Assembly (NCBI GenBank): GCA_947628305.1
Contig: CANQZG010000001.1
Coordinates: forward strand, 62,001 to 126,000
Reading direction: 5' to 3'
From: an uncultured Muribaculaceae bacterium
Lineage (GTDB): Bacteria > Bacteroidota > Bacteroidia > Bacteroidales > Muribaculaceae
DNA length: 64,000 bases
Shown here: positions 16,332-42,634 of the stretch, in pieces
Numbering within the stretch: the stretch's first letter is position 1
How the letters are laid out: each line of letters begins with the position of its first letter
Translations under genes and position numbers: made by a program
Notes under the pieces: generated by a model
What the model saw: only the letters and a program-made list of their open reading frames with translations
Told to the model about the DNA's origin: nothing
The model's database searches: none

Positions 16332-17915
16332 TTACTTTTTCTTGAGGTAGGGGGCGATGTAGGGCATGACGATGCGCTCCATGATTTTGTACCCATCGAG
16401 GGTGGGGTGACAACCGTCCTTGCTTAGATTGGCAGGAAGTCCGCCTTCGTCATTCGTCATTGCAGAGTGATAATCGACGTATGGGATTTTGTTCTCCTTG
16501 GCATACCGCTGTAGCATCTCGTTAAGCCGCTTGATGTCATTTGCCGGTTTAACCGACCTGTCCCAGTGGAACACTGTCGAGGGAAGTACCGATGCGATAA
16601 TCGGCTTGATTTTGTTGGCACGGGCGATTTCACACATTGACTTGACGTTCTGAACCACATGTTCAAGCGTGATGACACCGTTGTTACGCGCGATGTCGTT
16701 AGTCCCGGCAAGAATAACCACGGCCTTGGGATGAAGGTCGATGACATCGCTCTGGAAACGGGCGAGCATGTGAGACGAGGTCTGCCCGCTTATGCCACGC
16801 CCTGCTATGTTATGGTCGGTGAAAAACGCCTTGTCATTCTTGGGCCAGTTGTCCGTGATTGAGTTGCCCATGAACACAACATCAGGTGTCTTTTCCAATT
16901 CACGGTTCATCTTTTCATACCGATAGAACTGCGCCCAGTCGCTTGAACGTTGTTTCTCACGTGCCTCGGCCTTGAATTTCTTGGAAAAACGCTTGGCATC
17001 GACAAGATTAAACACCGCCTTTTTCAATCCCCGCTCGGCAAGATAGCCTATCAGGAACTGCGGCTGGTCGGTCTGGATTACGGAGCATCCCAGGCTGTCT
17101 ATAAGGAATCCGAAACCATCGGCGGGATTCACCAGCGATGCGAAATCGTCACGACCTCCGGCAAGAGTGCCCCACAGCGAGTTATACCACAGACGCGTTT
17201 TCCCTTTCAGTATAGGTTTCAATTTACCGGGGATGACATTGACAGTGTCACGATAAACCAGTTCTATGGCCGCAGGTTTCATCTTAGACATGAAGTCATT
17301 GACGCGTTCAATCGCGGTCGCCCGGTCGTCGAGTTTGACAATCGGCATGTAAATCAGTTTGTCAAGATACTTGCCATATCGGGTCTTGACCTCATCGGCA
17401 GTGGCACTACCTTTCATGATAACCTGGGATGTCGTCCCTGTCTCATCAAGGATTTTCATCACATCGTCAAAATAGTCGAATGCCTGGTCAAGATTGAACA
17501 ACGCTCTCCCTTTGTTGGCCGTCATCGCCTCACGCAAGGTGGGGACACGGTAAGGTGTTTTCTGCCCCACTCCGCTTTTCAGGTAAAGTCGCTTGATTTC
17601 AGCCAATGTCAGGTCTTCCACTTTTCCTTTGCCGGTTGTCGTACGGTCAACCGTCTTGTCATGCATCAACACCAATTCACCGTCGGCTGTACGTTTAAGG
17701 TCGACCTCGACAATATCTGCGCCGAGTTTGATTGCATTGTCGATACCTTCAAGCGAGTTCTCGGCATAGTTGCGCCAGTCGCCACGGTGCACGGCCACGA
17801 GCACCTCGCGGTCCTGCGGGTCAAGGAACTTGGCACGAATAGAGTCGGCCCGCGTCGCAGCCATGGAGGTCATGGCGACGGACAACGCAGCCATGGAAAG
17901 CAGTAGTTTTTTCAT
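16332..17915 (-). CDS. Secreted fusion: glycerophosphodiester phosphodiesterase + SGNH/GDSL hydrolase
   Basis: The 527-residue product has a signal peptide (MKKLLLSMAALSVAMTSMAA) and two catalytic domains. Domain 1 (about 35-300) is a GDPD TIM barrel: HRG at 43-45, EN at 52-53, EVD at 70-72 and HD at 85-86, the metal and acid/base residues for cleaving glycerophosphodiesters. Domain 2 (about 340-527) is an SGNH esterase: FMGNSITDNW with Ser352, Gly of GRGISG, GTND at 404-407 and DGCH with Asp500/His503. Both sites look intact. The pair could remove an acyl or acetyl group and break a phosphodiester on one substrate. It is the last gene of the PUL 1 run, separated from GH31 by a palindrome. 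The start at 17915 was chosen by the signal peptide. Confidence 0.88.
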   Translation of the reverse strand: MKKLLLSMAALSVAMTSMAATRADSIRAKFLDPQDREVLVAVHRGDWRNYAENSLEGIDNAIKLGADIVEVDLKRTADGELVLMHDKTVDRTTTGKGKVEDLTLAEIKRLYLKSGVGQKTPYRVPTLREAMTANKGRALFNLDQAFDYFDDVMKILDETGTTSQVIMKGSATADEVKTRYGKYLDKLIYMPIVKLDDRATAIERVNDFMSKMKPAAIELVYRDTVNVIPGKLKPILKGKTRLWYNSLWGTLAGGRDDFASLVNPADGFGFLIDSLGCSVIQTDQPQFLIGYLAERGLKKAVFNLVDAKRFSKKFKAEAREKQRSSDWAQFYRYEKMNRELEKTPDVVFMGNSITDNWPKNDKAFFTDHNIAGRGISGQTSSHMLARFQSDVIDLHPKAVVILAGTNDIARNNGVITLEHVVQNVKSMCEIARANKIKPIIASVLPSTVFHWDRSVKPANDIKRLNEMLQRYAKENKIPYVDYHSAMTNDEGGLPANLSKDGCHPTLDGYKIMERIVMPYIAPYLKKK

Positions 17916-17956
17916 TTCTGTCAATGTTTCTGTATATTGCATATTATACATTTTGG

Positions 17957-17994
17957 AATCGTAAGGACGCGCTCGTTGGCGCGTCCCTACGATT
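17957..17994. repeat. Single palindrome of repeat family B
   Basis: AATCGTAAGGACGCGC, 6-nt loop, GCGCGTCCCTACGATT: a 16-bp stem with one mismatch, between the GH31 and GDPD-SGNH genes. It may act as an intercistronic hairpin. Confidence 0.7.
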
Positions 17995-18003
17995 TATTAC
18001 AAT

Positions 18004-20640
18004 TCATCGTTTAAGCTGGGCTTTCAAGCGTTTCTTGAACCCGTCGCCTATGATGTCCATTTCATCGGTTTTATCAAACAATTGTCCGATATTGCTCTCG
18101 AAGTCCTTTATACAAGTCCTGATTTCGGCAGGATTTTCAAGTATGAAGTTGGGACATTGTGACACTTTCAGATATTCCTGCGGCAGCATCAGCCTGTCCT
18201 CCCCGTGACGTCCCTGTTCCTCCTTGAACTGCGGTGTCAGTGCGAGACAACGGTTGAACACCGCCTTTTTGCCGTATAACGCCGCATTGTCGGCATCAAC
18301 GCCCTCATAGTCAAGTGTCACGACCGCATCATTACCGACAGGAAGCGAGGCGGTATATACCACCGGCTGCAACGAATAACCGTCGTAGGTCCATTCACCG
18401 GCCTTTGGGAATCGTGAATAAGAGTATTTTACTCCGTTCACCTCGACCGATGCCGGAGGCATCATCGCCGGGAATCTAAGTTCATATCTCCGAGCGTCAG
18501 GTGCGCCGTCATAACCACCCTTGCGCGCGGCGATTCTTACATTGACACGGTTTCCGTCGGTATTTTTCTCCACATGAGTAATGGCATAATCACTCTCGTA
18601 GGATGATGATACACCGTCATCCTCATAGTGGTCGAGCGCGCCGTCATCACCCGGGATAAATGTCAGCACAAGTGTATCGCAATCCCGCTGTAGGTTCTTT
18701 ACATTATCAGGGTTCATCGGAATAATCGCGCCCGCCTTGACATAAAAGGGATTCTCGGCGAGGGTATAGGCCAATGTTTTTTCCTGATTCCCATCAATCA
18801 TGTCGCCGGTCACGAAGTCATACCAACGTCCCTGCGGGAACCACATCTTACGTTCAGCCAGGCCTGTAACCGAGTCTACGGGAGAGGCGACAACCGTGGC
18901 AAGGATATCGTCACCGAGGAAGAATTGCTCCGGGACATTGTAGGCCTTATCAAGCTCGGGATATTCATAATACATCGGTCGTGTCATCGCCACGCCCGTG
19001 TCATAGTTGGCACGCGCCGCGTTATAGATATAGGGGACGAGCGAGTAACGCTGCTTGATAGCATCACGCATCATGAACAGATGGTCGGGGAACGCCCACG
19101 GATAGCGCACGATGTTCATGTCCTTGCTCGAATGGGTCTTGAAAATCGGGGTGAACACACCATATTGCAACCACCGCAGATAAAGCTCGGGGTCGGTGTA
19201 ATGCCACTTGCCGTCCTTTGCAAAATAATGCCCGCCGATGTCGTGTCCCCAGTAACCGTAATTGACATTGGAGGCCGTCGAAGTGAAGTAAGGCAGGAAT
19301 GCGAGCGTAGACCATTTGATATAGGTATCACCCGAGAACCCGAGCGGATAACGGTGGCTTCCGAGACCTCCCCAGCGGTGATAAATAAACGGACGCTCTT
19401 TCACGTCTCGGTTCTTCGCATGCTTGAAGAAAGTGTGATTAAGCCAGAAAGTGTTGGAAAGGCCGGGGAGGAACTTAGACTCGCGCCACTGCTGCCAGTC
19501 GAGCCACCAAAAATCGACACCTTCCTTCTCCATAGGTTCAAGTATTGTCTTGAAATAAGTGTCGGCCCATTTCTTTTCATCCATCTTGAAAGGAATGCTT
19601 TTTGTCGTGTCCCTCCATCCATATTCCTTGGCAAAACGCTGATAGCATTCCTCGTATGGCTGAATACCCGACGCCGGATGCAGGTTCAACGCCACTTTCA
19701 AGTCCTCGTTTTCAGTCCATTTCAGGAAATTGGCCGGATTGGGGAACAATTGTTTCTGCCAGGTGTAACCCGTCCAGCCGATACGCTGTCCGTACTCATC
19801 CTTGGGCGTGTCTTTCGACCTTAATCCAAACGTGTCATGCCAGTCCATATCGACAATCAGGACATCGATTGGAATGTCAAACGCCTTTATTTTATCCACG
19901 ACATCCACCAATTCGTTGTCGGAATACTGCCAGTAACGGCTCCACCAGTAGCCAAAGGTATATTTCGGGGGCAGCGGTGCGCGACCCGCCACTTTCTGAT
20001 AGTCAGACAACGCCTTTTTATAGTCATGCCCGTAAGCGAACAGATACAGGTCTTGACGCTCTCCGTCGGGACGTGCGGCCACCCATTCGTCCCAGGACGA
20101 ATCGTCAGGCTTCAACAGATGGTTACGGCTATCATCAACAATAGCCCATCCGGCACGCGAGACAAGCCCTTTTTCCATAGGCTCACGACCAAACTTGATT
20201 CCGTCACACGCATCGAGGGTGCGTGCCGTCCCCATCAGGTTCTGTGTGTCATCCATTCCGGGATGCCACACAACATCCTTCCCGTTCATCTTGAACTTCA
20301 CCTCAAGATTTTTATCGTCAAAGGGTTTTCCGTCTTTTTTATAGGTGAGGGTAAGGGCATCGGTCTTGATGACGAGACGGGATTTGTTATCCTTTACAGT
20401 GAATTTGGGGACAGGCAGGGAACGGTTGACAAAAGTCAGCGTCTTGCAGTCTTCCCATTTGCCGTCAGGACTATATTCCATGCGTATCAGTTGCGGGGTC
20501 AACACCGTGAAACGCGCGTCACCAGCTGTCACTACCGCGCATCGGTCAGCCTTGGGGTCATCCTTGGCGTATGAGGTAAAACATGTCGCCGTCAATACAA
20601 CCGCGACACATATACGGGATACCAGACTGGATATTTTCAT
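18004..20640 (-). CDS. Glycoside hydrolase family 31 (alpha-glucosidase/xylosidase-type), secreted
   Basis: A retaining exo-acting alpha-glycosidase. The 878-residue product has a signal peptide (VVLTATCFTSYA) and an N-terminal beta-sandwich (about 35-215). The (beta/alpha)8 barrel (about 220-570) opens PPKYTFGYWWSRYWQYS and contains IPIDVLIVDMDWH. The probable nucleophile is Asp381 in DFWWLDWQQW and the acid/base is Asp438 in GFSGDT. It also has VNYGYWGHDIGG. Proximal and distal beta domains follow, and a C-terminal helical extension of about 90 residues that most GH31 enzymes lack. GH31 covers alpha-glucosidase, alpha-xylosidase, alpha-galactosidase and sulfoquinovosidase activities; I cannot choose. 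It has a possible promoter of its own at 20678-20705. Confidence 0.92.
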   Translation of the reverse strand: MKISSLVSRICVAVVLTATCFTSYAKDDPKADRCAVVTAGDARFTVLTPQLIRMEYSPDGKWEDCKTLTFVNRSLPVPKFTVKDNKSRLVIKTDALTLTYKKDGKPFDDKNLEVKFKMNGKDVVWHPGMDDTQNLMGTARTLDACDGIKFGREPMEKGLVSRAGWAIVDDSRNHLLKPDDSSWDEWVAARPDGERQDLYLFAYGHDYKKALSDYQKVAGRAPLPPKYTFGYWWSRYWQYSDNELVDVVDKIKAFDIPIDVLIVDMDWHDTFGLRSKDTPKDEYGQRIGWTGYTWQKQLFPNPANFLKWTENEDLKVALNLHPASGIQPYEECYQRFAKEYGWRDTTKSIPFKMDEKKWADTYFKTILEPMEKEGVDFWWLDWQQWRESKFLPGLSNTFWLNHTFFKHAKNRDVKERPFIYHRWGGLGSHRYPLGFSGDTYIKWSTLAFLPYFTSTASNVNYGYWGHDIGGHYFAKDGKWHYTDPELYLRWLQYGVFTPIFKTHSSKDMNIVRYPWAFPDHLFMMRDAIKQRYSLVPYIYNAARANYDTGVAMTRPMYYEYPELDKAYNVPEQFFLGDDILATVVASPVDSVTGLAERKMWFPQGRWYDFVTGDMIDGNQEKTLAYTLAENPFYVKAGAIIPMNPDNVKNLQRDCDTLVLTFIPGDDGALDHYEDDGVSSSYESDYAITHVEKNTDGNRVNVRIAARKGGYDGAPDARRYELRFPAMMPPASVEVNGVKYSYSRFPKAGEWTYDGYSLQPVVYTASLPVGNDAVVTLDYEGVDADNAALYGKKAVFNRCLALTPQFKEEQGRHGEDRLMLPQEYLKVSQCPNFILENPAEIRTCIKDFESNIGQLFDKTDEMDIIGDGFKKRLKAQLKR

Positions 20641-20677
20641 TCTATTATATATTCTATTATAATTGTGTTAGTATATG

Positions 20678-20705
20678 CAAATGTACTAAAAATAACCTAA
20701 AACAA
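20678..20705 (-). promoter_or_regulatory. Possible internal promoter for GH31
   Basis: On the minus strand TTG (20703-20705) and TACATTTG (20678-20685), spacing 17 bp, slightly short. Located in the 150-bp gap upstream of GH31. Confidence 0.4.
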
Positions 20706-20790
20706 TCTTTTCCACCATTGAAATTTCCCTGTTACAACAACCTAAATTACCTTAAAACATCCACCAAACTCGCAAATCATCAAAAGATTC

Positions 20791-23448
20791 TTATCTTACG
20801 ACCTTGAATGTGCGGCCTCCACATGCAATCAGGCAGATACATGCCGACAGACTTGACAAATCAATGTCAACCTCGGTAGAACCGTTACCACCAACATTCT
20901 TCAACACACGCCCTGAAAGGTCGGAGACCACTACATTCCTTATGACATCAGGCGATGAAAGGCGGTAGACGCCATCCGAGACACAGGAGAGCACGACAGA
21001 GCTATCAACGTCGGAGACAACATCACCTATAGCAGTCAGTTCGCTATACTCAATCGCCCCCGGGACTGATTTACCTGCACGCGCATTACCGTGCTGGTCC
21101 ACTTTCAACTGATTCCCGACAACTCCATTGCCGTCAATATCGACACTGAACTCTTTCTCCAGATTACGCATCAACACAGTCAACGTGTTGACATCGCAGT
21201 CACCATATTTTGTCGATGCAAGCCTGGCGTATGGAGTCTTGCCGGCCTCACGTATTATATTGGCCGAAAAAACTCCGTTTTCCATTTTGCCATCCATCAA
21301 CGCCGGAAAGGCGTTGATGTAGGCATTCTTATCGACCGCCATTATAGACTTCGCGTCAGGGATGAAACTGACGGTTGTGGCGGTGGAGTACAGGTTATTG
21401 GCATCCTTCAGCACCCGGTCAGGGTCTTCTACACAAATATCGGCGTATGCTTCAGTCCCGTCGGAATGGTTACCGGCTATTATGTTATTCATCAGACGGA
21501 CATCGCCGCCTGAAATATTGATTGCCGAGGCATAATAGTTACCGGCCGATGACGCTGGAACAGTGGCCCGGTTGCCCGTCACTGTGACATGCCCCAGGTT
21601 CAGCCTTGACGTACCCGCCTTGGCTTCTTCATTGACAGCCGAATCTGAAAGACGCGCATGGATGGCTGCTCCGGCACACGCTTTCACGACAGTAGCCAAC
21701 CCGCCCTTTGAATCAAGCGTGTTGTCGGCGAATGTCGTGTTGACAACCGTGAACTGGACACTGGGCATCTCGTCATTGATGTACAATGCGCCCGACTTGC
21801 GCGACTTGTTCTCGACAAAGGAGCTGTTGCTTATCATGGCCGTAGCGTTGGTGAACCATATTTCAGTAGCCACAGGCGTGCCACAGTCAAGATAAACCGC
21901 CCCGGCCGTGGATGTGGCCTCGTTACTGTCAAACGAACATCCGTCGAGCCTGAACTTGTCATAGAAACCAACCGCTATCGCACCGCCGTTGACGGCCTTG
22001 TTTCCCTTGAACGAGCAACGTGTCGCGATGAAATTATTGCAATCGGCATAATAGGGTTTTAAGTCAGGATTGGATATTGCCGATACGGCACCGCCATAAC
22101 CAACCGCCTCATTATTGATGAAATCCACATTTTCAAGAGTCAGGTCGCAACCACGGAACAGCAACGCGCCGTCACGCTCGACAGCTGTAGAACGATAGTT
22201 GCGCAGTTCACAGTTCTTCATTGTCAACGAATAATTCTCGGGGACATACACCAACGGATATTCAAGACCCTCGCCGTCAAGGACTGTCTTACCGACTACC
22301 TCGGTGAACGCCTTGTTGTAACCGCCAAGAATCGTCAGGGTGTTCTCCGGGGCGACCGATTCATTGTAAACGCCCTCCGTGACCATTATAATGTCGTCAA
22401 TCTCGGCGTTGGCGGCCGCATCGGCAATAGAGTTGTACGGCTTCGCTTTTGTCCCGTCGCCGTCAGCCGAAGCCTCGGAGTCAACGTAAACCTCCCTGGG
22501 GGCACCCGGAGATTCAAGCTCGGCAACCACAAACACAGGGAAATGGTCCGATGCCGGATACTGCGTGCCCTGGTAGTCGTAAGTGTCAACGACAATGTGA
22601 CGTTCAAGAATCTTCATGTGGCGGAAAAACTGATAGTCGATTTCCTTGAAAGCATAACTTGACGAAGTGGTGTTGAACGCGCCATACGTCCCCTCTGTAC
22701 CGGGCAATGTCGTGGGCAGACAATAATTTTTCTCGGCCGCAACTTCAAACTTTGCGTCCTTGAACGAGGCACGATAGGCTTTATAGGCTTTCACATCACG
22801 CGGTATACGCTGCATGTTATAGTCAGCCACTACCATGACGGGATAATCCCCGGCGATTTCCTTGACACGATTCACCACAAGTTGGGAGCCGTATACACCG
22901 TCGAGAGTCCAGCCGTTATTGGTATGGGTGGCCGCATAGAAGAATATATCGCCTGTGCTTTTGTCCTTTAGTTTCACCCAGCCTACATTTCGGGTGTGGG
23001 TGGCTATTTTCTTGTCCCATCCCGCCGAATATTTCTCGGGGGTCGGCGATATAAAGAAACTGCCGGATTCAAGCATATCATATTTCCCGTTCTTGAACGC
23101 GATGCCGACATACTCCTTGTCGGCCGTGCCGTCACGGTCCCATGCGAGGAACGTGTACCCCGACCCTTCAAGGCTCGCACGGAACTCCTCCAACTGGGAC
23201 TTCCCTGTCAAGGAATTGTTATTGCCACGGCCACGTCCTGTCAGCTCCTGGAAACCAACCACGTCAAAATCGTATTTGGTTATCATGCTGATTGCAAACG
23301 GCCCACGGTTACACCAATCCTTGCCCCCCTTGTCGGTCGTCGCGCAATATCTCACATTGAACGTCGCGAGACGATGGGACGCGGCCACACCGCCCAAAGA
23401 AGCGATAACGAGTGAAAACAGTGTTATAAATAGTTTGGTTTTATTCAT
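20791..23448 (-). CDS. Secreted fusion: EEP-family phosphodiesterase + parallel beta-helix + T9SS-like tail
   Basis: The 885-residue product has a signal peptide (MNKTKLFITLFSLVIASLGG). Domain 1 (about 25-312) is an endonuclease/exonuclease/phosphatase fold: FNVR (Asn31), FQE (Glu68), THTNNGW (His175), ADYNM (Asp209/Asn211), IDYQF and SDHFP (Asp301/His302), a complete metal-dependent active site. Domain 2 (about 318-780) is a right-handed beta-helix with repeated NNEAVGYGGAVSAI, GNKAVNGGAIAVG and SNEATSTAGAVYLD coils. The last 70 residues include VVSDLSGRVL, a degenerate type IX secretion sorting domain. Members of the EEP fold cleave nucleic acids, sphingomyelin or inositol phosphates. The beta-helix probably binds or docks. 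Start 23448 was chosen by the signal peptide; the longer frame to 23553 runs into a repeat element. Confidence 0.87.
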   Translation of the reverse strand: MNKTKLFITLFSLVIASLGGVAASHRLATFNVRYCATTDKGGKDWCNRGPFAISMITKYDFDVVGFQELTGRGRGNNNSLTGKSQLEEFRASLEGSGYTFLAWDRDGTADKEYVGIAFKNGKYDMLESGSFFISPTPEKYSAGWDKKIATHTRNVGWVKLKDKSTGDIFFYAATHTNNGWTLDGVYGSQLVVNRVKEIAGDYPVMVVADYNMQRIPRDVKAYKAYRASFKDAKFEVAAEKNYCLPTTLPGTEGTYGAFNTTSSSYAFKEIDYQFFRHMKILERHIVVDTYDYQGTQYPASDHFPVFVVAELESPGAPREVYVDSEASADGDGTKAKPYNSIADAAANAEIDDIIMVTEGVYNESVAPENTLTILGGYNKAFTEVVGKTVLDGEGLEYPLVYVPENYSLTMKNCELRNYRSTAVERDGALLFRGCDLTLENVDFINNEAVGYGGAVSAISNPDLKPYYADCNNFIATRCSFKGNKAVNGGAIAVGFYDKFRLDGCSFDSNEATSTAGAVYLDCGTPVATEIWFTNATAMISNSSFVENKSRKSGALYINDEMPSVQFTVVNTTFADNTLDSKGGLATVVKACAGAAIHARLSDSAVNEEAKAGTSRLNLGHVTVTGNRATVPASSAGNYYASAINISGGDVRLMNNIIAGNHSDGTEAYADICVEDPDRVLKDANNLYSTATTVSFIPDAKSIMAVDKNAYINAFPALMDGKMENGVFSANIIREAGKTPYARLASTKYGDCDVNTLTVLMRNLEKEFSVDIDGNGVVGNQLKVDQHGNARAGKSVPGAIEYSELTAIGDVVSDVDSSVVLSCVSDGVYRLSSPDVIRNVVVSDLSGRVLKNVGGNGSTEVDIDLSSLSACICLIACGGRTFKVVR

Positions 23449-23481
23449 TTTGTGATTTTTAAACAACCTCTTAATTCGGAA

Positions 23482-23571
23482 TCGTAGGGACGCACCAACG
23501 TGTGCGTCCATCATTGCAGATAGTTGATATTCTGCTACTCTGGAGACGCGCACGTTGGCGCGTCCCTACGA
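23482..23571. repeat. Paired-palindrome repeat, family B
   Basis: Same layout as 16203-16292: TCGTAGGGACGC..., spacer with ATTGCAGATAGTTGATATTC, then GACGCGCACGTTGGCGCGTCCCTACGA. The second palindrome is identical to that of 16203-16292. It sits between two co-oriented PUL genes. Confidence 0.75.
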
Positions 23572-23609
23572 CACTGATTTATGAATTGTACAACATCCTT
23601 TAATGTCGG

Positions 23610-25280: not shown

Positions 25281-25306
25281 AATGATTTAAGTGTTAAAGT
25301 TATATA

Positions 25307-25349
25307 GAGTCCTTAGGGACTTTAAGGGCCTTAAAGTCCCTAAGGACTC
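25307..25349 (-). repeat. Perfect 19-bp inverted repeat between SusD and the beta-helix gene
   Basis: Arms GAGTCCTTAGGGACTTTAA and its exact complement around GGGCC. No U-run follows on the minus strand, so it is more likely an intercistronic processing or stabilising hairpin than a full terminator. A relative with GAGTCCTTAA arms is at 40596-40630. Confidence 0.75.
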
Positions 25350-25357
25350 CGGGTTAG

Positions 25358-27145: not shown

Positions 27146-27158
27146 GTGATTGACTGTT

Positions 27159-32220: not shown

Positions 32221-32792
32221 TACAGTGCCAATATCAAAATTAGGGACATAAACATCGCCCTGATGTGGTAACGGCTCGACAGCTGCTCCTTGATGAATTT
32301 CAACGCCAACGCCACATGGGTCTCGACTGTGCTGACCGAGATGTCGAGTTCCTCTGAAATCTGCTTGTAGGATTTATCCTCAAGACGGTTCATCCTGAAC
32401 ACCCGGCGACGGACAGGTGGCAGTTCCTCGACCAGTGCATTGATATACCCCGAGAGGAAACGGGCATCGACATCCTGCTCAGTCGTGCACTCATACCCTT
32501 TGCCTGTTTTCAACAGATAATTGAAATAGGCATGCTCGACGGCCTGACGCTCGCAGTGGTTGAAAAAGACATTACGGGCAATCGAGAGCAGAAACGCCTC
32601 CATTGACTCCACATCCGACATCATACCACGCCGCTCCCACACCCGCATGAAAACCATCTGCGTGATTTCCTCGGCAAGCCACTCGTCACCATGGGAAATA
32701 TGGAGCACAAAATTGTAGATGCGCCCGCTGTAATCATGGTACAGAGTCTCAAAATGCCGGTCTGGCAGCCTTTCAGGCTTACGGTGTAACAT
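32220..32792 (-). CDS. ECF-type RNA polymerase sigma factor (PUL 1)
   Basis: A 190-residue Bacteroidetes ECF sigma factor. Sigma region 2 (about 15-80: HFETLYHDYSGRIYNFV, EEITQMVFMRVWE) and region 4 (about 125-175: MNRLEDKSYKQISEELDISVSTVETHVALALKFIKEQL) are both complete. A short hydrophobic tail (MFMSLILILAL) follows. It is the first gene of a co-directional run through FecR, lipoprotein, SusC, SusD, two beta-helix proteins, GH31 and GDPD-SGNH. No consensus -33/-7 pair is visible in the 80 bp upstream, so it may be autoregulated. Confidence 0.95.
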   Translation of the reverse strand: MLHRKPERLPDRHFETLYHDYSGRIYNFVLHISHGDEWLAEEITQMVFMRVWERRGMMSDVESMEAFLLSIARNVFFNHCERQAVEHAYFNYLLKTGKGYECTTEQDVDARFLSGYINALVEELPPVRRRVFRMNRLEDKSYKQISEELDISVSTVETHVALALKFIKEQLSSRYHIRAMFMSLILILAL

Positions 32793-35081: not shown

Positions 35082-35106
35082 TTTGATTTATTTCTAAAGT
35101 TTGAAA

Positions 35107-36945
35107 TTATTCCCATCCGGGATTCTGAACGAGATTGGGATTGAGAGCAATCTGATTGGCAGGAATCGGATAGAGGTAGTCACGGGTCTCGTTGAAAGGA
35201 TAGTTCTCAGTCTTCATGCCAACATGCCAGTCAAAATAGCCTCTGTTACCGTCGCTCAAGAATATCTCCTTACCGATTTCGTAGACCTGTCCGACCCCGG
35301 AGGGCTTGGCATCGCCCTGATTGTAGAGAGCCAGGTCAGCCTTGCCGTCCCCCGTCAAATCATACTTGCCCGCACCGGGGAAATACATTCCATAAAGAGG
35401 TTGGTCAAGACACTTGCCGGCTTTCCAGCGGAAAAGGTCCATAAGACGGAAACCTTCCATGACGAGTTCGATTCCACGCTCACGGCGTATCTCAAGAATC
35501 ACACCCTTGTTGTTACCTGTTACATTGGGATAGCCGTATTCATCACCGGCAAGATAAGGGTCGGGGATAGCGTTGGCCTGTGCCATGTTCATGTCAGGCA
35601 TGCCGACACGTTTGCGCAGCAGATTGACTGACTTATCAAGGTCATCCTGGGTGAGCGAACCAAGTTCGGCCTTAGCCTCGGCATAGTTCAACAGAACCTC
35701 GGCGTAACGCATCCATGGGAGGTCATTGGTCGATCTATCAATATTGTCATTCTGGTTATTGCCGGTCTTGGATTGCTGCACAAACTTAATAGGCTGATAA
35801 CCCGTGACTGAAATTCCCAAGTCCGGAGCAAGAACAGTGTTCTCACCGATACGTTTATAATTCAGGCCACGTACAGTCTGTGACAGACGGGGGTCACGGT
35901 CCTTCATCTCCTCGGTGAACTGCATTGTCTGCCAACCGGGGATGTCAGTGAAACGACGACCATCCTTCATCAGGTAGGAACAGATAAATTTACGTGTAAG
36001 ACCCGGTTGTCCTTGGCTCGCAATAAGCGTAAAACCGTTAGTGTTGTGCGACGTTCCGCTAACCAAGGTAGATGATGAGGAATATCTTGAGAAGATGTAT
36101 TCATCTTTGTCGGCATCTTCCTGTACAAAGAGGTCGCGGTAGTCGGTATCGGTCTTGCCGGTGAGACGCTTGATGCTGTACTCCTTGCGGTCCATCAGTG
36201 TCTGGGCGGCATCGGCCGCGAGCTGAAGATAATAATTATAATCATGCTCGGGATAAGTAAGGTTATGATACTTGCGCCATGTGCCTTCAAAAAGACAGAT
36301 ACGGGACTTAAGTGCGAGAGCCGCACCGATAGTTACACGGTAAGGGGCTTCCTTCTCATCTTTCTTGGCTTTGAGATGCTCGATTGCATAGTCGACATCC
36401 TCGATGATTTTAGTCATGATGAACTCACGGCTGTCACGGGCCTTGTAAAGGTCAGGGTCGGCCGAACCGAGCTGCTTGTCATACCAGGGCACATCGCCAT
36501 AGTGTTTCAGCTTCTCGGCATAGAAATATGCACGGAAAAAGCGTGACACTGCGGTATAATGTATCTTGGCCTCCTGGTCCTGACACTTGTCGACATTCTC
36601 AAGCAGGGTGTTGATACGGCGCAGGTCCTTCCATCCGCTATTGGACCACTCCCAATGGCTACCGGAACCATCCTTTGGAGTATAACGCTTGATTCCGCCG
36701 ATTATCTCATCGCTCAGGGTACGCTGAATCAGCTGGTCACTCTGTTCCGTGAAGAAATCCTTAATCGGAATGTTATTGTAATAAGGATTAGTGAACATCT
36801 CGAGGTCAGTGGCTGTCGTGAAATAGGTCTCATTTGCCAGCTTATCCTTGGGGACTACGTCAAGCGTGTCATCGCATGAGGTAAAACCCACGGCAACCAA
36901 CGACGTTAACAGTATTGGAAATATTTTTTTCATTGTTTGATTCAT
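35107..36945 (-). CDS. SusD/RagB-family glycan-binding lipoprotein (PUL 2)
   Basis: The 612-residue product (or 608 from the ATG at 36933) has lipobox FTSC, a SusD body with RFFRAYFYAEKLKHYGDVPWYDKQLG, IGAALALKSRICLFEGTWRKYHN, MRYAEVLLNYAEAKAELG and ILEIRRERGIELVMEGFRLMDLFRW, and ends IALNPNLVQNPGWE. It is close in architecture to the PUL 1 SusD (shared FRAxFYY, FEGTxRKYH and GKCLDQPLYGMYFPGAGKYDLTGDGKA-type segments), which suggests both PULs arose from one ancestral pair. It lies 8 bp after SusC. Confidence 0.95.
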   Translation of the reverse strand: MNQTMKKIFPILLTSLVAVGFTSCDDTLDVVPKDKLANETYFTTATDLEMFTNPYYNNIPIKDFFTEQSDQLIQRTLSDEIIGGIKRYTPKDGSGSHWEWSNSGWKDLRRINTLLENVDKCQDQEAKIHYTAVSRFFRAYFYAEKLKHYGDVPWYDKQLGSADPDLYKARDSREFIMTKIIEDVDYAIEHLKAKKDEKEAPYRVTIGAALALKSRICLFEGTWRKYHNLTYPEHDYNYYLQLAADAAQTLMDRKEYSIKRLTGKTDTDYRDLFVQEDADKDEYIFSRYSSSSTLVSGTSHNTNGFTLIASQGQPGLTRKFICSYLMKDGRRFTDIPGWQTMQFTEEMKDRDPRLSQTVRGLNYKRIGENTVLAPDLGISVTGYQPIKFVQQSKTGNNQNDNIDRSTNDLPWMRYAEVLLNYAEAKAELGSLTQDDLDKSVNLLRKRVGMPDMNMAQANAIPDPYLAGDEYGYPNVTGNNKGVILEIRRERGIELVMEGFRLMDLFRWKAGKCLDQPLYGMYFPGAGKYDLTGDGKADLALYNQGDAKPSGVGQVYEIGKEIFLSDGNRGYFDWHVGMKTENYPFNETRDYLYPIPANQIALNPNLVQNPGWE

Positions 36946-36953
36946 TTTTAGGT

Positions 36954-39900
36954 TTAGAATGTCACGTCGATACCAAACATATAGGTCTTGGGCCAAGGAT
37001 AGAAACCACCGTTGGCGTCGTCATCGCGGTTGAACGCAGCCTCGGGGTCAACATACTTGGTGTGTTTCTTCAACGGAGACCAGTAACAGAGGTTTTCACC
37101 CGTGAAATAGACACGCACCTTGTCAATGTGAGCCTTCTTGGTGATATTTGTCGGAATCGTATAACCTACGGTCAGGTTCTTGAAACGGAGGTAACGGATA
37201 TTCTGGATGTAACGGTCATTGTAGTTCTGGAGGTTACCGTTTGAACGGGCCTTTGCCAATGGACGGGGGAAGTAGGCGTCACGGTTCTCAACCGACCATA
37301 CATTGTCCATGAAGTTCTCGGGCACGAACGAAGCGTATTCACAGTAGCCGTAAGGTCCCCAGAATGCTGTGGTACGGTTATTGGGATACCAATAGTGGTT
37401 ACCTGTGCCCTGGAAGAACGCCGACACATCGAAACCGAAGTACTGGAACGACGCTGTAAAGCCATACTGCAACGAAGCGAGCGAGTTACCGAGTTTCTTG
37501 AGGTCACCATGGTTGTAGAGTGAGTTGATGGGCACACTCTTGAACACGGGATTGCCGTCGGCGTCTTTCATCGCCTTAGCCTCGGCATAACCTTCATCAC
37601 CCTCGACAAGGAAAGTCTTACCATCGGAAATCATGGTGGGGTCACCGTCATTCACCTTCTTGTCACCGTTGGTGTCAAGGAAAATGAGGTCACCGGCCTG
37701 ATAACCACCGGCGATTGAGTTGGTCACCTTAGTCAGGTCAATATCTTTCTTGTAGGCATCGGCTTCCTCGTCGCTCTGGAACAGACCGCCGGTGGAGTAA
37801 CCCCAGATATCGCCTACACGCTTGCCCTCGTAATTAGAGCCGAGGAGCTTGCTTTCGTTGTTCTTGAACTTGGTGATTGTACTGTTGTAGTCCGAGATAT
37901 TGAAACCGACACTGTAGCTGAAACGTTTGCCGAACAGCTGGAAAGAATCGTTCCAGCTCACAGCAAGTTCGTAACCTTTGGTGCGGAGGTCGGCTGCATT
38001 TGACTTGATTGCGCCGGCGCCGTAAACGTCGGGGAGCTGCATCGCATCGGTGAGCATGTCCTTGGTATCACGGATATAGAGGTCACCGGTGAAACTCAAG
38101 CGGTTGTTGAACAACAGAAGGTCAAGACCTAAGTCCCACTGGTTGGCTTTCTCCCATGTGAGGTCCGATGCCTTGGGGTCTTGCAGACTCGTGTAAGAGC
38201 CTGGGGAGTCAGAGCCAAATGTATAAGAAGCGAATGTGTTGGTCGTCACGAGACGAAGCCATGTATAGTAGTCCGACACATTCTGGTTTCCGAGTGAACC
38301 GTATGATGCACGGATTTTGGCATTGTCAAGCCAACCACGGGTCGACTCCATGAACTTTTCTTCGGAGAAACGCCAACCGATAGAACCCGAGGGGAACATA
38401 CCCCAGCGGTGTCCCTTTGAGAAGCGTGACGAACCATCGTAACGGCCTGAAAGTTCAAGGAGATATTTGCCTTTGTAGTCATAGTTGATACGGCCGAATA
38501 TACCCATCAGCTTATATTCACCCTGACCGCCTGATACCTCAACGACAGGAGAACCGTTCTCACCATTCACAACGAGGTCAAAGTCATCGAGGTCATCGCT
38601 TGCAAGATTATAAGCCTTGGTATAGACTTTCTTGAGAGTGTATTGCTCGTAGTTGTAACCTGCCATAACGGTGAGGTTGTGGTCTTCCTTGAATGTATCC
38701 TTATAGGTCGCAAACGCATTCACTGAATAATAGTTGTGAGTATTGATTGTCTCTTTCAATGCGTTCTCGCCCGCGCCGGTTGTATAATAGCCAATCTCAT
38801 CCCCGGGGTTGGAACGGAATCCCAGGTTAGTGGAACGTCCTGTGTTACGTGCCTGATAGAATCGATAGGAGAAGTCTCCTACAATCGAGAGTTGCTTGAT
38901 AGGGTTGATTGTCAAGCGCGATGTATTAGTGAAGTTGGTCTTACGGTCCATGTTGCGGTCCTTGCCTTCAAGAAGAATCTGATGGCGTGAGTTACCGACA
39001 TTGGCTGTAATCCAAGGAATTGAACGCAGATAAGTCCCGTCAGGGTTGGTAAGAGGGAAACATGCATACAGGTGACGTCCAAGCATCGCCATGTTATCAT
39101 CGATTGCACCGTAACCTACATGGTCGTATGTCGAGCCATAGAATGCCATGTTGTTGGAGAATGACGCATACTTGTTGATTGCGAAGTCAATCTTTGAACG
39201 GATGTTGTAACGTTTGTATTTATCGGTGTGAACCTTGAGCATACCGTCACGGTATTCGAGGCCTCCTGATACAAAATAGTTGAGCTTACCTTTTCCGCCT
39301 GACAAAGAAACGTTATGTTGCTGAACCGGGCGAGTGGTATCGAACAATGTGTTGTACCAGTCGGTGTTGGCATAATATTTCCAAACTTTCTTACCGTTGA
39401 TGGTTTTCTCAACAGTCCAAGGACGGTCAGGGTTCTCTGTCGTGTCATTGACACGGGCGAGAAGTTCCATCATGTCCTCATCATCATATAATATAAGGTT
39501 GGAGTTGGATGATGCCTGTTTAAACGTGTTGATAGTCTTCACATGCCAGTAACCGGTCTTGATGAAATCGGTTGACGTCGTACCCGAGTCCCAACCGAAA
39601 CGACCGTTATAACGGACCTTGGTCTTACCCTCCTCGGTCTTACCCGACTTGGTTGTCACGAGAATGACACCGAACGCTGCACGGGCACCGTAAACGGCGG
39701 CAGCCGAGGCGTCCTTGATGACCGACACTGACTCGACGTCATTAGGGTTGACAAGGTTCATGTCGCCAATCGCGCCGTCGATGAGCACCAACGGGCCGTT
39801 GTTGCCCGACAGAGACTCACGTCCACGGATATTGATTGACGCTGCCTGTCCCGGGACACCTGACGATGTCGAGATGTTAAGACCGGCGACAGACCCCTGG

Positions 39901-40328
39901 AGCATATTGCTTATAGATGTCGCAGGGCGTCCCTCGAGTTTTTCGCCATCGATACTTGCGACAGCACCAGTGAGGTTCACCTTCTTCTGTGTACCGTAAC
40001 CGATGACGACAGTCTCGTTAAGCATGATGGCATCCTCTTTCATCACAACATTGACATTGGTCTCATTTGGACCTACAGTCACTGTCTGAGGAGCGAAACC
40101 CACGTATGTGAGTTTGAGCGTAACCGCGCCTGACGGTACTTTCAGACTGAACTTACCGTCAATGTCGGTCATTCCGCCGGTGGTTTTACCGCTCATGATG
40201 GTAACTCCAGCCAATGGCTCTCCCTGGGTGTCGAGAACTGTTCCCGTCACCGTCCTGCCCTGTGCCGCGGCCGCAAACGACCATAACGCCACAAAGAGCA
40301 TTAGGAATAACGATTTAATTACTTTCAT
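36954..40328 (-). CDS. SusC/RagA-family TonB-dependent transporter (PUL 2)
   Basis: The 1124-residue product has a signal peptide (LMLFVALWSFAAAAQ). A carboxypeptidase-like sandwich follows (about 25-105, VTGTVLDTQGEPLAGVTIMSG). The plug carries NETVVIGYGTQKKVNLTGAVASI and DASAAAVYGARAAFGVILVTTKSG, and the barrel ends YMFGIDVTF. There is no STN domain, so it is not signalled through FecR, unlike the PUL 1 SusC; no regulator lies next to it. The barrel shows clear similarity to the PUL 1 SusC over its C-terminal half (LSGRYDGSSRF, WGxFPSxSxGWRFSEExF, GENLCYWSPLKKH). Confidence 0.96.
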   Translation of the reverse strand: MKVIKSLFLMLFVALWSFAAAAQGRTVTGTVLDTQGEPLAGVTIMSGKTTGGMTDIDGKFSLKVPSGAVTLKLTYVGFAPQTVTVGPNETNVNVVMKEDAIMLNETVVIGYGTQKKVNLTGAVASIDGEKLEGRPATSISNMLQGSVAGLNISTSSGVPGQAASINIRGRESLSGNNGPLVLIDGAIGDMNLVNPNDVESVSVIKDASAAAVYGARAAFGVILVTTKSGKTEEGKTKVRYNGRFGWDSGTTSTDFIKTGYWHVKTINTFKQASSNSNLILYDDEDMMELLARVNDTTENPDRPWTVEKTINGKKVWKYYANTDWYNTLFDTTRPVQQHNVSLSGGKGKLNYFVSGGLEYRDGMLKVHTDKYKRYNIRSKIDFAINKYASFSNNMAFYGSTYDHVGYGAIDDNMAMLGRHLYACFPLTNPDGTYLRSIPWITANVGNSRHQILLEGKDRNMDRKTNFTNTSRLTINPIKQLSIVGDFSYRFYQARNTGRSTNLGFRSNPGDEIGYYTTGAGENALKETINTHNYYSVNAFATYKDTFKEDHNLTVMAGYNYEQYTLKKVYTKAYNLASDDLDDFDLVVNGENGSPVVEVSGGQGEYKLMGIFGRINYDYKGKYLLELSGRYDGSSRFSKGHRWGMFPSGSIGWRFSEEKFMESTRGWLDNAKIRASYGSLGNQNVSDYYTWLRLVTTNTFASYTFGSDSPGSYTSLQDPKASDLTWEKANQWDLGLDLLLFNNRLSFTGDLYIRDTKDMLTDAMQLPDVYGAGAIKSNAADLRTKGYELAVSWNDSFQLFGKRFSYSVGFNISDYNSTITKFKNNESKLLGSNYEGKRVGDIWGYSTGGLFQSDEEADAYKKDIDLTKVTNSIAGGYQAGDLIFLDTNGDKKVNDGDPTMISDGKTFLVEGDEGYAEAKAMKDADGNPVFKSVPINSLYNHGDLKKLGNSLASLQYGFTASFQYFGFDVSAFFQGTGNHYWYPNNRTTAFWGPYGYCEYASFVPENFMDNVWSVENRDAYFPRPLAKARSNGNLQNYNDRYIQNIRYLRFKNLTVGYTIPTNITKKAHIDKVRVYFTGENLCYWSPLKKHTKYVDPEAAFNRDDDANGGFYPWPKTYMFGIDVTF

Positions 40329-40415
40329 AAATTTGCACTGTAATATTTAATTATAACTCGGTTTTTCTATGGTAATAAGCGGCCACGGGTCTAAAAGATT
40401 GTCTAATGTACATTA

Positions 40416-40457
40416 GCTTCCTGCACCGATGGTGCAGGAAGCCGCCATGGCGGCTTC
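40416..40457. repeat. Two overlapping palindromes upstream of SusC (PUL 2)
   Basis: GCTTCCTGCACC-GAT-GGTGCAGGAAGC (40416-40442) and GAAGCCGCCATGGCGGCTTC (40438-40457) share the GAAGC arm, so only one can form at a time in single strand. A third palindrome with core CGCGGCATGCCGCG follows at about 40535-40550. They may be a family A-like repeat or a transcript switch ahead of SusC. No consensus promoter is seen in this 311-bp gap. Confidence 0.6.
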
Positions 40458-40595
40458 AAGTTTTCCCCGGTCAACGCCGAGGTTGTCAGGCGGAGGGTGT
40501 TGCAGACGACAGTTTTCAGGCGAATCTGTACGGTCGCGGCATGCCGCGGCCTGTACGATTCTTTTCTTGCAACGTCCTCTCTATATTTTCAAAGT

Positions 40596-40630
40596 CTTTA
40601 GAGTCCTTAAGGTCTTTAAGGACTCTAAAG
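40596..40630 (-). terminator. Hairpin after the calcineurin-type phosphoesterase gene
   Basis: A perfect 15-bp inverted repeat CTTTAGAGTCCTTAA around GGTCT, 9 bp beyond the stop codon. There is only a weak T tract on the minus strand. Its GAGTCCTTA core is shared with 25307-25349. Confidence 0.55.
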
Positions 40631-40639
40631 ATGGTTTCG

Positions 40640-42634
40640 TCAGTTTTGCATTTTGTAGGCGTCGGTCGAGAATGCCTTGGGACGGGCCATGTTCTCGGTC
40701 CAGGTGTGGCCGAACTCGTCCTTTACCGTGATTACAAGGTCGGTATCGGCATCGGGGGCGGTCACCTTGAAGAAGTGGTGGGAGCGTTCGGTGATGAAAC
40801 TCGGTTTGGATGTCGCACCGGCGAAACGCTTGACGGTCAGAGCCGCGATGTGCAGCGGGTCGTAGGCCGATGTCTTTGTCACGGCCAGGTTCTGACCTGA
40901 CTGGGTTGTCACCGTGACAGTCCAGGCCGGATTCCAGTTCCACACGTTAATCAACACCTCGTTCTTGCTGTTCTTGGGATAGGCCGACACGTAAGGCTGG
41001 AAAGCCGAATTCAGCGAGGATGACATACCGGGAACATCGTCCATCGAAAAGCTGACATTGTTAAGGTCATAGCTGTGGAACTGATGGCTCTCGGGGTAAC
41101 CGGCCGCCTTGTAAAGCATACTTTCGATATTGCTCCCCTTCACATCCCAGATTGCGTAACCACCGGGGGAGCCGTCGAGGCTGACATGGACACCGGGGGT
41201 GAGGTTGCCTGACCACCACCATGACGAGCAGATGGCAGCGACGTTGTGCTCGGTGAAGTCATGTCCGCCGACAGTGTTCATCTGTGTCGCAGTCAGTGTA
41301 TAGTTCTTGTGTGTATGACCTGTGACAAAATAGACTTTGTAGCCGTTGAAGATTTCAAACATGTTCTTCATGCTCGCCGATGCGACAGACGCGTGGGAGA
41401 TTGAGGCCGAAGTATTGCTCGTCGGTTCGGCACAAATATGGGAGTGCATCGTGGCGATGACAGTCGAACCCTTGGCGACATGCTCGAGGTCCTTGCGAAG
41501 CCACTGCAGCTGGTCGCTCGAGATGCGCACCTGATAATTTCGTGACGAAGTGCCGTCGTAGTCGCTGCAATCGATGTCGTCCATGACAACATAATGGACT
41601 TTACCGATGTTGAACGAATAATAGGTCGGGGCGATTGTTCTACGGTACTTGACCTCGGCATCGAAGTCGGAGAATGTCTCCATCTCGTTATCGTGGTTAC
41701 CCATAGTGTGGAAAATCTGTATCCCCTTCACCTGCCCGTTGACTGTCTTGAGGTATTCGGGCAAGCCGTATTTCCTTGATACCCAGTACAAATCCCATGT
41801 CATGTCGCCGAGGGTGACGGCATACATCTTTTCACTTGCATGGGCATAGCGGTAATTGTTGAAATCAGCCATCACCTTGTTGAACTGGGCCTCATCGTTT
41901 GTACGGTTGGCCAGGTGCATGTCGCCAAGGAAGAACACCTTGTAATTATCCTGTCCCGACACAGGTTTCAGCGTGAAATCCACACGCTCGGCCGTGTTGG
42001 CATCATTCTTCAACAACGAATAGAACTGCGGCAGGATACCGTCGGCCAACGCCTCGTAACCCGAAGGAATCGACATGAACACATATCCCCACTTCTTGGC
42101 CGACTTAATCTGATAGACACCTTTGTCGTTGGTTGTCACGACCTCGTCACCGTCTGAAACGACAACTCCGGCGACAGGCATGCCGTCCTCGGTTGAAATC
42201 ACGCCAAACACGGTTGTCCCTGCATCAGGCGTGATTATATCCTTCACTATATTAATGTGAAGCGTTCCGTAGGTCTTTTTACGGGTATCACGCTTGAGCG
42301 CGACACGGTAATCGCCGGACACAAGTGTCTCGGGAAGTTTCACCGTGAACTTGTCAGCGGCAACAGTCTCGATTTTGGCGGTTGTAGAGACGCCTGAACT
42401 TTCCAACATCATCACATCGGTAGCCAACGGAGCCTTGCCATTGAGTACCGCGAACTCAATTGTACCACCCTTGACGACATCAATTGTCGCGGGAACAGTG
42501 AACTGCACATCGAAATCACCCGTTGGGTTCACAGGGCCGTCCGGTTCCTCCTTGCTGTCTCCACAGCTGACGGCAAAAGCCGGCAAAAGCAGGACAAGAG
42601 TCACCCATAACAGATACTTGCTTATATTTTTCAT
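40640..42634 (-). CDS. Calcineurin-like metallophosphoesterase lipoprotein
   Basis: A surface or periplasmic two-metal phosphoesterase. The 664-residue product has lipobox AVSC (Cys24) followed by GDSKEEPDG, an N-terminal beta-sandwich (about 40-130) and a carboxypeptidase-like domain (about 142-222). The calcineurin core (about 230-460) has FLGDMH (Asp238, His240), TLGDM (Asp277), MGNHDNE (Asn313, His314), MHSH and GHTH. A C-terminal beta domain (about 520-660) follows. This MetallophosN-core-C layout is common in Bacteroidetes PULs, but substrates are mostly unknown; phosphomonoesters, diesters or nucleotides are all possible. It is 311 bp upstream of, and co-directional with, SusC of PUL 2. 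Confidence 0.9.
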   Translation of the reverse strand: MKNISKYLLWVTLVLLLPAFAVSCGDSKEEPDGPVNPTGDFDVQFTVPATIDVVKGGTIEFAVLNGKAPLATDVMMLESSGVSTTAKIETVAADKFTVKLPETLVSGDYRVALKRDTRKKTYGTLHINIVKDIITPDAGTTVFGVISTEDGMPVAGVVVSDGDEVVTTNDKGVYQIKSAKKWGYVFMSIPSGYEALADGILPQFYSLLKNDANTAERVDFTLKPVSGQDNYKVFFLGDMHLANRTNDEAQFNKVMADFNNYRYAHASEKMYAVTLGDMTWDLYWVSRKYGLPEYLKTVNGQVKGIQIFHTMGNHDNEMETFSDFDAEVKYRRTIAPTYYSFNIGKVHYVVMDDIDCSDYDGTSSRNYQVRISSDQLQWLRKDLEHVAKGSTVIATMHSHICAEPTSNTSASISHASVASASMKNMFEIFNGYKVYFVTGHTHKNYTLTATQMNTVGGHDFTEHNVAAICSSWWWSGNLTPGVHVSLDGSPGGYAIWDVKGSNIESMLYKAAGYPESHQFHSYDLNNVSFSMDDVPGMSSSLNSAFQPYVSAYPKNSKNEVLINVWNWNPAWTVTVTTQSGQNLAVTKTSAYDPLHIAALTVKRFAGATSKPSFITERSHHFFKVTAPDADTDLVITVKDEFGHTWTENMARPKAFSTDAYKMQN

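Follow-up and report, generated by a model that had tools for sequence, protein, structure and literature searches.

Sus-type loci are commonly read as glycan importers. What, then, would be taken up by two neighbouring Sus-type loci whose main enzymes are phosphoesterases? The window analysed here, a stretch of 64,000 nucleotides from an uncultured Muribaculaceae bacterium, carries two such loci (named A and B), which the first-pass annotation had joined into one possible island for a phosphate-linked polymer. We consider it fairly probable that the two are separate import systems, independent of each other and drawn from a single SusC/SusD lineage linked to phospho-esters, with B serving glycerophosphodiesters and A an alpha-glucosylated phosphate-bearing glycan.

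Gene content of the two loci

Every gene in the first-pass inventory was found, at the following positions.

16332..17951, minus: end of locus A, GDPD + SGNH fusion, accessory gene (Pfam)
18004..20640, minus: locus A, GH31 (Pfam)
20791..23553, minus: locus A, EEP phosphatase domain fused to a beta-helix (EEP structure matches; Pfam Beta_helix)
23610..25280, minus: locus A, secreted protein of beta-helix type whose C-terminal tail is type IX-secretion-like (TIGR04183)
25358..27181, minus: locus A, SusD-type lipoprotein (Pfam)
27159..30722, minus: locus A, SusC-type transporter with N-terminal STN domain (Pfam)
31249..32220, minus: locus A, FecR-type anti-sigma factor (Pfam FecR + FecR_C)
32220..32792, minus: locus A, ECF-type sigma factor (Pfam sigma-70 r2/r4)
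33561..35081, minus: locus B, lipoprotein of surface type, conserved (weak BACON match; C-terminal part predicted as a CBM/SGBP-like jelly roll)
35107..36996, minus: locus B, SusD-type lipoprotein (Pfam)
36954..40328, minus: locus B, SusC-type TonB-dependent transporter (Pfam)
40640..42634, minus: locus B, calcineurin-type metallophosphoesterase lipoprotein (Pfam MetallophosN + Metallophos + MetallophosC)
47672..49132, minus: outside the range of the two loci, possible partner, sn-glycerol-1-phosphate dehydrogenase-like enzyme (PRK00843)

Each locus is a transcription unit of its own. The phosphoesterase-type genes (GDPD–SGNH, EEP–beta-helix and calcineurin-type) all encode complete motifs, and they are accompanied by one GH31, two beta-helix proteins and two SusC/SusD pairs. 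Like the Sus-type PULs of Bacteroidetes, the loci combine SusC/SusD with surface lipoproteins and secreted hydrolases, with sigma/anti-sigma control in A, and SusC–SusD adjacency is present in both. Unlike in those PULs, the main enzymes are phosphoesterases; the carbohydrate-active enzyme of locus A is its GH31, and none occurs among the four genes of locus B. Tandem-repeat and Rfam searches returned nothing relevant.

A shared SusC/SusD lineage

In a SusC tree of 179 proteins, both SusC/SusD pairs of the window fall in one fully supported clade of 99 members. EEP, calcineurin, GDPD, NAGPA or GlpT genes share a same-strand run with 78 of the 99 clade members versus 4 of 80 proteins outside, a contrast for which Fisher values overstate independence, as clade sampling followed similarity to the query and the sequences are related. 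The label changes 20 times on the tree, against 49–69 times when shuffled, and within the bacterium's own family such runs occur in 24/27 clade members and 1/69 others. The gene labels were seeded from clade loci, a bias offset only in part by a Pfam control, in which Exo_endo_phos (14/78), Metallophos (5) and GDPD (3) were counted behind SusD in the clade; the control loci are led by GH20 and sulfatases, with these three families missing from the 25 listed. Twenty-one clade members have no phosphoester gene in their run, and at least one member (L144) resembles a sialic-acid locus. Retention of SusC/SusD by relatives without the phosphoesterases, which was to speak against a phosphate-linked target, is not the pattern among orthologs: the calcineurin gene is present in every ortholog of locus B whose calcineurin position is readable, and an EEP gene lies in the run of 4/4 locus A orthologs, although in one of them (G205) it is separate and further downstream. 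A deep phosphoesterase-tied SusC/SusD lineage that spans Bacteroidota and has one branch connected with glycerol-phosphate catabolism would offer an annotation rule for phospho-ester loci.

By gene content, which rather than SusC/SusD phylogeny is the basis of this comparison, both loci resemble the PUS systems of Flavobacterium. In F. johnsoniae, the SusC/SusD-like pair PusCD is co-localised with phosphomono- and phosphodiesterases, not CAZymes, and is induced by phosphate depletion, and the same response includes an EEP protein and an abundant lipoprotein annotated as pectate-lyase-like IPR011050 (PMC8115612). The window's EEP–beta-helix and beta-helix proteins resemble those response proteins, and the co-localisation is found in both loci (EEP and GDPD in A, calcineurin in B) and conserved in relatives. 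Together with clade members from Sphingobacterium, Dyadobacter and Maribacter that also carry EEP, these likenesses lend some weight to a lesser but real possibility, namely that assorted organophosphates, mainly phospholipid head groups, are taken up as a phosphorus source when phosphate is limiting, as happens in Flavobacterium. However, carbon use is indicated as well, since related loci have GlpABC, alpha-glycosidases and a DeoR-type regulator as neighbours, and PusD forms are reported to be polyphyletic (PMC8115612). The window's loci also differ from PUS in that the calcineurin–SusC–SusD–lipoprotein cassette is tied in relatives to glpC/glpT/GDPD, and in the GH31 and sigma/anti-sigma pair of locus A. 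Apart from PUS, the literature searched (most subscription journals lie outside it) yielded no direct precedent for Sus-type teichoic or glycerophosphodiester loci and no description of such loci in gut Bacteroidales.

Locus B and glycerol-phosphate

The calcineurin-type protein belongs to the Metallophos family and retains complete metal motifs (GDMH237, GDMTW276, GNHD312, MHSH396 and GHTH439). Its predicted model is confident (pLDDT 89), and the closest fold to the predicted core is the glycerophosphodiesterase GpdQ (2zo9, 2dxl; Z 19.7, tied with Rv0805 and Lmo2642), with an rmsd of 2.5 across 221 residues at 11% identity. Unlike GpdQ, the window protein is a lipoprotein with extra N- and C-terminal domains. 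Dinuclear metallophosphoesterases are active on many esters. One structure tied with GpdQ as nearest fold is a cyclic-nucleotide phosphodiesterase. The lipoprotein at 33561–35081 matches BACON at 0.0016 (1.4e-5 for its L138 ortholog); its model is of low to modest confidence (pLDDT 62.7), and the weak CBM/SGBP-like matches from the fold search were excluded as ligand evidence. The name DUF5689 has no support from Pfam for this protein, whose one match is the weak BACON one.

The four genes form a cassette with calcineurin first, complete in 23 other loci, and SusC_B orthologs (53–69% identity) accompany it in ten further genomes of this family. In two genomes (L138, L139), glpC, a glpT-like gene and GDPD precede the cassette on one strand, glpC scoring 588–591 bits with TIGR03379 (cutoff 280); glpT, GDPD or glpABC occur in the SusCD gene run of the orthologs L138, L139, L206, L211 and L221. 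A GlpT-type transporter is encoded by 11/11 surveyed family genomes with cassette B versus 40/187 without it, and this contrast is repeated inside four genera. We therefore favour glycerol-phosphate as the unit for locus B, because of the contiguous glpC–glpT–GDPD genes in orthologs and the co-occurrence with GlpT. No GDPD or glp gene stands beside the window's own locus B, so that its link to glycerol-phosphate would run through orthology and through glpABCT, encoded elsewhere in this genome. There glpABCT adjoins GH36, opposite lipoproteins, SusC, calcineurin, GH31 and GDPD. The genome's third SusC paralog (L145) lies with a G3P-dehydrogenase-like gene, GDPD, GlpT, SusD, a BACON protein, an S1/P1 nuclease and calcineurin. 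Known GlpQ/GDPD systems with GlpT and GlpABC are matched here by complete GDPD motifs and by the contiguity with glpC–glpT in orthologous loci; unlike in those systems, the window's GDPD is fused to SGNH and located in locus A, and an outer-membrane SusCD importer is added.

In the mechanism that we propose, the lipoprotein and SusD of locus B would bind a glycerophosphodiester-type ligand at the surface and SusC would import it. The calcineurin-type enzyme, joined by GDPD in relatives, may cut the phosphodiester to yield glycerol-phosphate, which GlpT and GlpABC would import and oxidise. For both loci, gene content, conservation, co-occurrence and motifs are observed, and the enzyme activities, the ligand, the place in the cell where each step occurs and the regulation are inferred. 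Since locus B of relatives adjoins genes for importing and burning glycerol-phosphate, it is suggested that bacteria with such loci use glycerol compounds with phosphate links as food, for instance phospholipid head groups or the teichoic acids of Gram-positive neighbours. It would thereby become a testable question whether Bacteroidales in the gut consume phospholipids or teichoic acids that belong to other bacteria, and SusC_B, calcineurin, GDPD–SGNH and the glycerol-1-phosphate dehydrogenase are offered for the test. Teichoic acid, phospholipid head groups and other phosphoglycans are all candidate ligands.

Lipoteichoic acid is the most interesting candidate, still a tentative one, hinted at by the glycerol-1-phosphate dehydrogenase, relatives of which adjoin GDPD or GlpT: family homologs lie directly behind GDPD (L308, L315, L316) or before GlpT (L313). 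The window's enzyme matches PRK00843 at 3.6e-55, below that model's cutoff, with 9h4x as closest PDB entry. Glycerol-1-phosphate dehydrogenase is known mainly from archaeal lipid synthesis, and the lipoteichoic-acid reading, if true, would give it a catabolic role. sn-Glycerol-1-phosphate is the unit of lipoteichoic acid (PMC7086022). It is a speculative, rather unlikely proposal that the genome encodes a dedicated system for glycosylated, acylated poly(glycerol-phosphate), notably lipoteichoic acid of Gram-positive neighbours, in which GH31/GH36 alpha-glycosidases and esterases would strip the substituents, GDPD and calcineurin cut the chain, SusC/SusD import it, and both product enantiomers be catabolised (sn-glycerol-3-phosphate by GlpABC, sn-glycerol-1-phosphate by the 47672–49132 dehydrogenase).

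Locus A and its possible ligand

SusC_A orthologs (64–76% identical) were found in G178, G115, G142 and G205, with the sigma factor conserved upstream. The gene set sigma/anti-sigma–SusC–SusD–beta-helix–EEP–GH31 is conserved in relatives, including the 23610–25280 beta-helix protein, with EEP–beta-helix present in G115, G142 and G178 and GH31 in G115 and G142. G115, G142, G178 and G205 are the genomes that hold both loci, and A and B are separated in each of them, by 1.44 Mb in the one-contig genome G115, so that the single island is unsupported as a conserved unit. The GDPD–SGNH fusion was rejected as a core part of locus A, from which it is missing in G115, G142 and G205 (L122, L123, L124).

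The EEP domain matches the EEP structures 3g6s (4.6e-17), 3mpr and 4c1r (6.3e-14); the Pfam EEP model gave no match in this protein at 0.001, and Beta_helix was reported there. Complete motifs (FNVR65, GFQE100, ATHTNN208, VADYN242, SDHFP335) place it in the superfamily, and its true start is probably near 23448, with the signal peptide MNKTKLF... The near solved relative 4c1r shares the fold and one sequence group and is named mannosyl-6-phosphatase, a monoesterase, which qualifies the label phosphodiesterase; unlike 4c1r, the window's EEP is fused to a beta-helix and neighbours GH31 rather than mannosidases. For the 23610–25280 protein, TIGR04183 scored 23.3 bits (cutoff 23) and Pfam gave no match; its presumed beta-helix fold derives from the first reading and sequence similarity. 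The solved enzyme closest to the GH31 is LlGH31_u1 (7wj9; phmmer 9e-138), an alpha-1,3-glucosidase (PMC9061262).

These matches to 4c1r and to an alpha-1,3-glucosidase, and the recurrence of GH31 with EEP–beta-helix in L127–L130, would also suit a PUL of the ordinary kind that targets an alpha-glucan or a glycoconjugate, the EEP merely removing phosphate decorations as the mannosyl-6-phosphatase does. We regard this as doubtful: a second glycosidase was identified neither in locus A nor in its orthologs, a related locus can hold as many as three EEP proteins (L127), and the sister loci L125 and L126 hold EEP, two GDPD and an OPA-family transporter with no glycosidase in the same-strand run. 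Extracellular nucleic acid, proposed earlier as feeding the nucleoside hydrolase–ribokinase operon at 48–53 kb, is the weakest candidate and very improbable. EEP and metallophosphoesterase folds do include nucleases, but the only such link seen in the SusC clade is the S1/P1 nuclease of L145, the EEP domain has its nearest structures in a sugar phosphatase and putative phosphatase-family proteins, GDPD, GlpT and GlpC have no role in nucleic acid use, and the pairing of that operon's dehydrogenase homologs with GDPD or GlpT points to glycerol-phosphate. The earlier interpretation is supported in part: for the lineage's tie to phosphoesterases, with glycerol-phosphate favoured for B, but not for the single island, GDPD–SGNH as core or nucleic acid.

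In our preferred reading, locus A would be controlled by its own sigma/anti-sigma pair, with which the STN domain of its SusC is compatible, and would serve a ligand different from that of B, an alpha-glucosylated phosphate-bearing glycan from which EEP–beta-helix may take off phosphate and GH31 alpha-glucose. The GDPD–SGNH fusion may contribute phosphodiester and ester cleavage in this strain. It matches GDPD (2.3e-26), DUF4996 (3.5e-24) and Lipase_GDSL_2 (7.2e-27) in Pfam, with 3i10 as closest PDB entry, and both halves are complete in their motifs (HRG55, EVDL82 and HD97 of the GDPD family; GNS362, GRG384, GTND416 and DGCHP512 of SGNH). Separate SGNH-like and GDPD genes are neighbours in L003 and L004.

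Gene content and conservation of the two loci

The first-pass annotation had read the two neighbouring SusC/SusD loci, A and B, as a possible phosphopolymer utilization island. All the genes it named are present on the minus strand, and the complete catalytic motifs it claimed were confirmed for the GDPD, SGNH, EEP and calcineurin domains. The genes of locus B, in order of transcription, and then of locus A, in listed order, are as follows.

Genes of locus B and locus A
40640-42634 (-), locus B, calcineurin-type lipoprotein
36954-40328 (-), locus B, SusC (SusC_B)
35107-36996 (-), locus B, SusD
33561-35081 (-), locus B, lipoprotein
32220-32792 (-), locus A, sigma factor
31249-32220 (-), locus A, FecR
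27159-30722 (-), locus A, SusC (SusC_A)
25358-27181 (-), locus A, SusD
23610-25280 (-), locus A, beta-helix protein
20791-23553 (-), locus A, EEP-beta-helix protein
18004-20640 (-), locus A, GH31
16332-17951 (-), locus A, GDPD-SGNH

The EEP domain of 20791-23553 was identified via sequence matches to the solved EEP structures 3g6s, 3mpr and 4c1r, the last of which bears the name mannosyl-6-phosphatase; no EEP domain was recognised in this protein by Pfam. The closest match of the GH31 protein is 7wj9, the Lactococcus alpha-1,3-glucosidase LlGH31_u1, which also acts on kojibiose with an efficiency 13% of that on nigerose (PMC9061262). The beta-helix protein (23610-25280, -) has a type IX-secretion-like C-terminal tail, with TIGR04183 barely over its cutoff, and the EEP-beta-helix protein (20791-23553, -) ends similarly as judged by eye. 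Just past the calcineurin gene and a small gene (42957-43589), on the opposite strand, lies a sulfatase-family gene (43700-45268, +), whose nearest NCBIfam models, all under cutoff, include arylsulfatase, choline-sulfatase and PehA. The gene at 54844-57045 (+) is one we take to be NAGLU-like. The third SusC/SusD pair of the window (58474-63856, +) lies in a run without phosphoester genes.

SusC_A and SusC_B were used as queries against 198 Muribaculaceae genomes, and the neighbourhoods of the matches were then read. SusC_A has orthologs (64-76%) in four genomes: the order sigma-FecR-SusC-SusD-beta-helix-EEP-beta-helix-GH31 is intact in G115 and G142, the contig of G178 ends inside the EEP gene, and G205 retains the first part of the locus, with separate EEP and SGNH genes further downstream. 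The GDPD-SGNH gene is absent from all three orthologous loci with readable ends, and the fusion is an accessory of locus A. SusC_B orthologs (53-69%) occur in 10 genomes beyond the window's own, with the identical four-gene order calcineurin-SusC-SusD-lipoprotein (cassette B) wherever the contig permits reading, several contigs in the survey ending early. Conservation in relatives thus holds for each locus separately and not for A and B as one unit. Their orthologs are 1.44 Mb apart in the one-contig genome G115 and on different contigs in G142, G178 and G205, so a single island is not supported: A and B are separate units that adjoin by chance in the window.

A SusC lineage tied to phosphoester genes

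Among loci with SusC proteins of ~46% similarity, L125 and L126 read SusC-SusD-EEP-GDPD-GDPD-OPA-family transporter, L127-L130 combine SusC-SusD with GH31 and EEP-beta-helix proteins, and L131 combines it with NAGPA phosphodiester glycosidases and GH97. The stretch L131:8434-17143, with several NAGPA-type enzymes and GH97 in its SusC/D locus, is possibly another phosphoglycan locus.

The sample was widened by 60 further SusC loci from the family and 80 named loci across Bacteroidota, and neighbouring genes were labelled by profile models derived from the initial loci. In a tree of 179 SusC proteins, from loci chosen for their similarity to the query, SusC_A and SusC_B share a clade of 99 members that has full support. 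A phosphoester gene (EEP, calcineurin, GDPD, NAGPA or GlpT) lies in the same-strand run of 78/99 loci in the clade versus 4/80 outside, the Fisher values being descriptive because related genomes are not independent. Label changes on the tree number 20, versus 49-69 with shuffled labels, and among family members alone such runs accompany 24 of 27 SusC proteins in the clade versus one of 69 outside.

Because the profile models were seeded from clade loci, the genes behind SusD were also scanned with Pfam as a control. Exo_endo_phos was found in 14 of 78 clade genes, Metallophos in 5 and GDPD in 3; GH20 and sulfatases are foremost among 63 control genes. None of the three phosphoester families is among the 25 families listed for the control genes, beyond which lie families seen in a single gene, so a stray match is possible. 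The runs of 21 clade members contain no phosphoester gene, and one member, L144, has the appearance of a sialic-acid locus.

Probable glycerol-phosphate link and predicted pathways

At L138 and L139 (genomes G186 and G155), the same strand carries, upstream of cassette B, glpC (~590 bits to TIGR03379, against a cutoff of 280), then genes for a GlpT-type transporter and a GDPD, and in G186 the remaining glpABC genes come after (L297). The named Maribellus loci L206 and L221 join GlpT and GDPD to cassette B, L211 carries GlpT, and at L143 cassette B is followed by GDPD and GH31; a protein 43% identical to the NAGLU-like product precedes the L143 cassette. A GlpT-type transporter is encoded in 11/11 family genomes with cassette B versus 40/187 without, and in genera g1, g9, g26 and g30 exactly in the cassette-B genomes; the exact substrate is inferred, since scores fall under the NCBIfam GlpT equivalog cutoffs.

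The window genome itself encodes a third SusC of the clade (L145, contig C16), in a run of G3P-dehydrogenase-like protein, GDPD, GlpT, SusC, SusD, BACON protein, S1/P1 nuclease and calcineurin. On its contig C9 (L285, L291), GH36, HAD, glpT, glpC, glpB and glpA lie opposite a second set of genes: DeoR-type regulator, lipoproteins, SusC, a lipoprotein of 547 aa where SusD would usually stand, calcineurin, GH31 and GDPD. This arrangement, repeated in G205 (L286, L292), is likely a glycosylated glycerol-phosphate locus.

The calcineurin protein of locus B has a confident predicted structure (pLDDT 89), the core of which is closest in fold to the glycerophosphodiesterase GpdQ (Z 19.7). Since GpdQ is tied with Rv0805 and Lmo2642, the predicted fold is consistent with glycerophosphodiesterase activity but is no proof of it. 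In locus B, the ligand would be bound at the surface by SusD and the lipoprotein and imported by SusC; the phosphodiester would then be cut, and the glycerol-phosphate used via GlpT and GlpABC, encoded elsewhere. In locus A, presumably under sigma/anti-sigma control, EEP would dephosphorylate and GH31 alpha-deglucosylate a phosphate-bearing glycan. By sequence inspection, putative stand-alone close relatives of the GDPD domain of GDPD-SGNH lie directly behind an SGNH-type esterase gene at L003 and L004, that of L004 preceding an apparent OPA-type transporter, so deacylation and phosphodiester cleavage would be a recurring pair.

Candidate polymer and described systems

Lipoteichoic acid (LTA) is favoured by two hints, short of proof: alpha-glycosidases adjoining glp genes, and a glycerol-1-phosphate dehydrogenase-like gene (47672-49132, -), LTA being built of sn-glycerol-1-phosphate and wall teichoic acid (WTA) of sn-glycerol-3-phosphate (PMC7086022). 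Homologs of this gene are rare (5/198 family genomes); at three of five places outside the window GDPD lies directly upstream (L308, L315, L316), and at one (L313) GlpT follows, neighbours that suggest a catabolic role. Phosphatidylglycerol head groups would be a source of glycerol-1-phosphate too. In the window itself this gene sits within a nucleoside hydrolase-ribokinase operon, where a role in glycerol-phosphate use is tentative.

The enzyme activities, ligands and regulation of both loci are predictions from gene content, and similarity to the query sequences decided which loci were compared. Among described systems, the PUS loci of Flavobacterium come closest: there, SusCD-like pairs and phosphoesterases are induced by phosphate depletion (PMC8115612). 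Locus B shares their gene content and is a candidate for such a system, and locus A also qualifies, by its genes, as a polysaccharide utilization locus. The Flavobacterium PUS response includes EEP and beta-helix-annotated exoproteins (PMC8115612).
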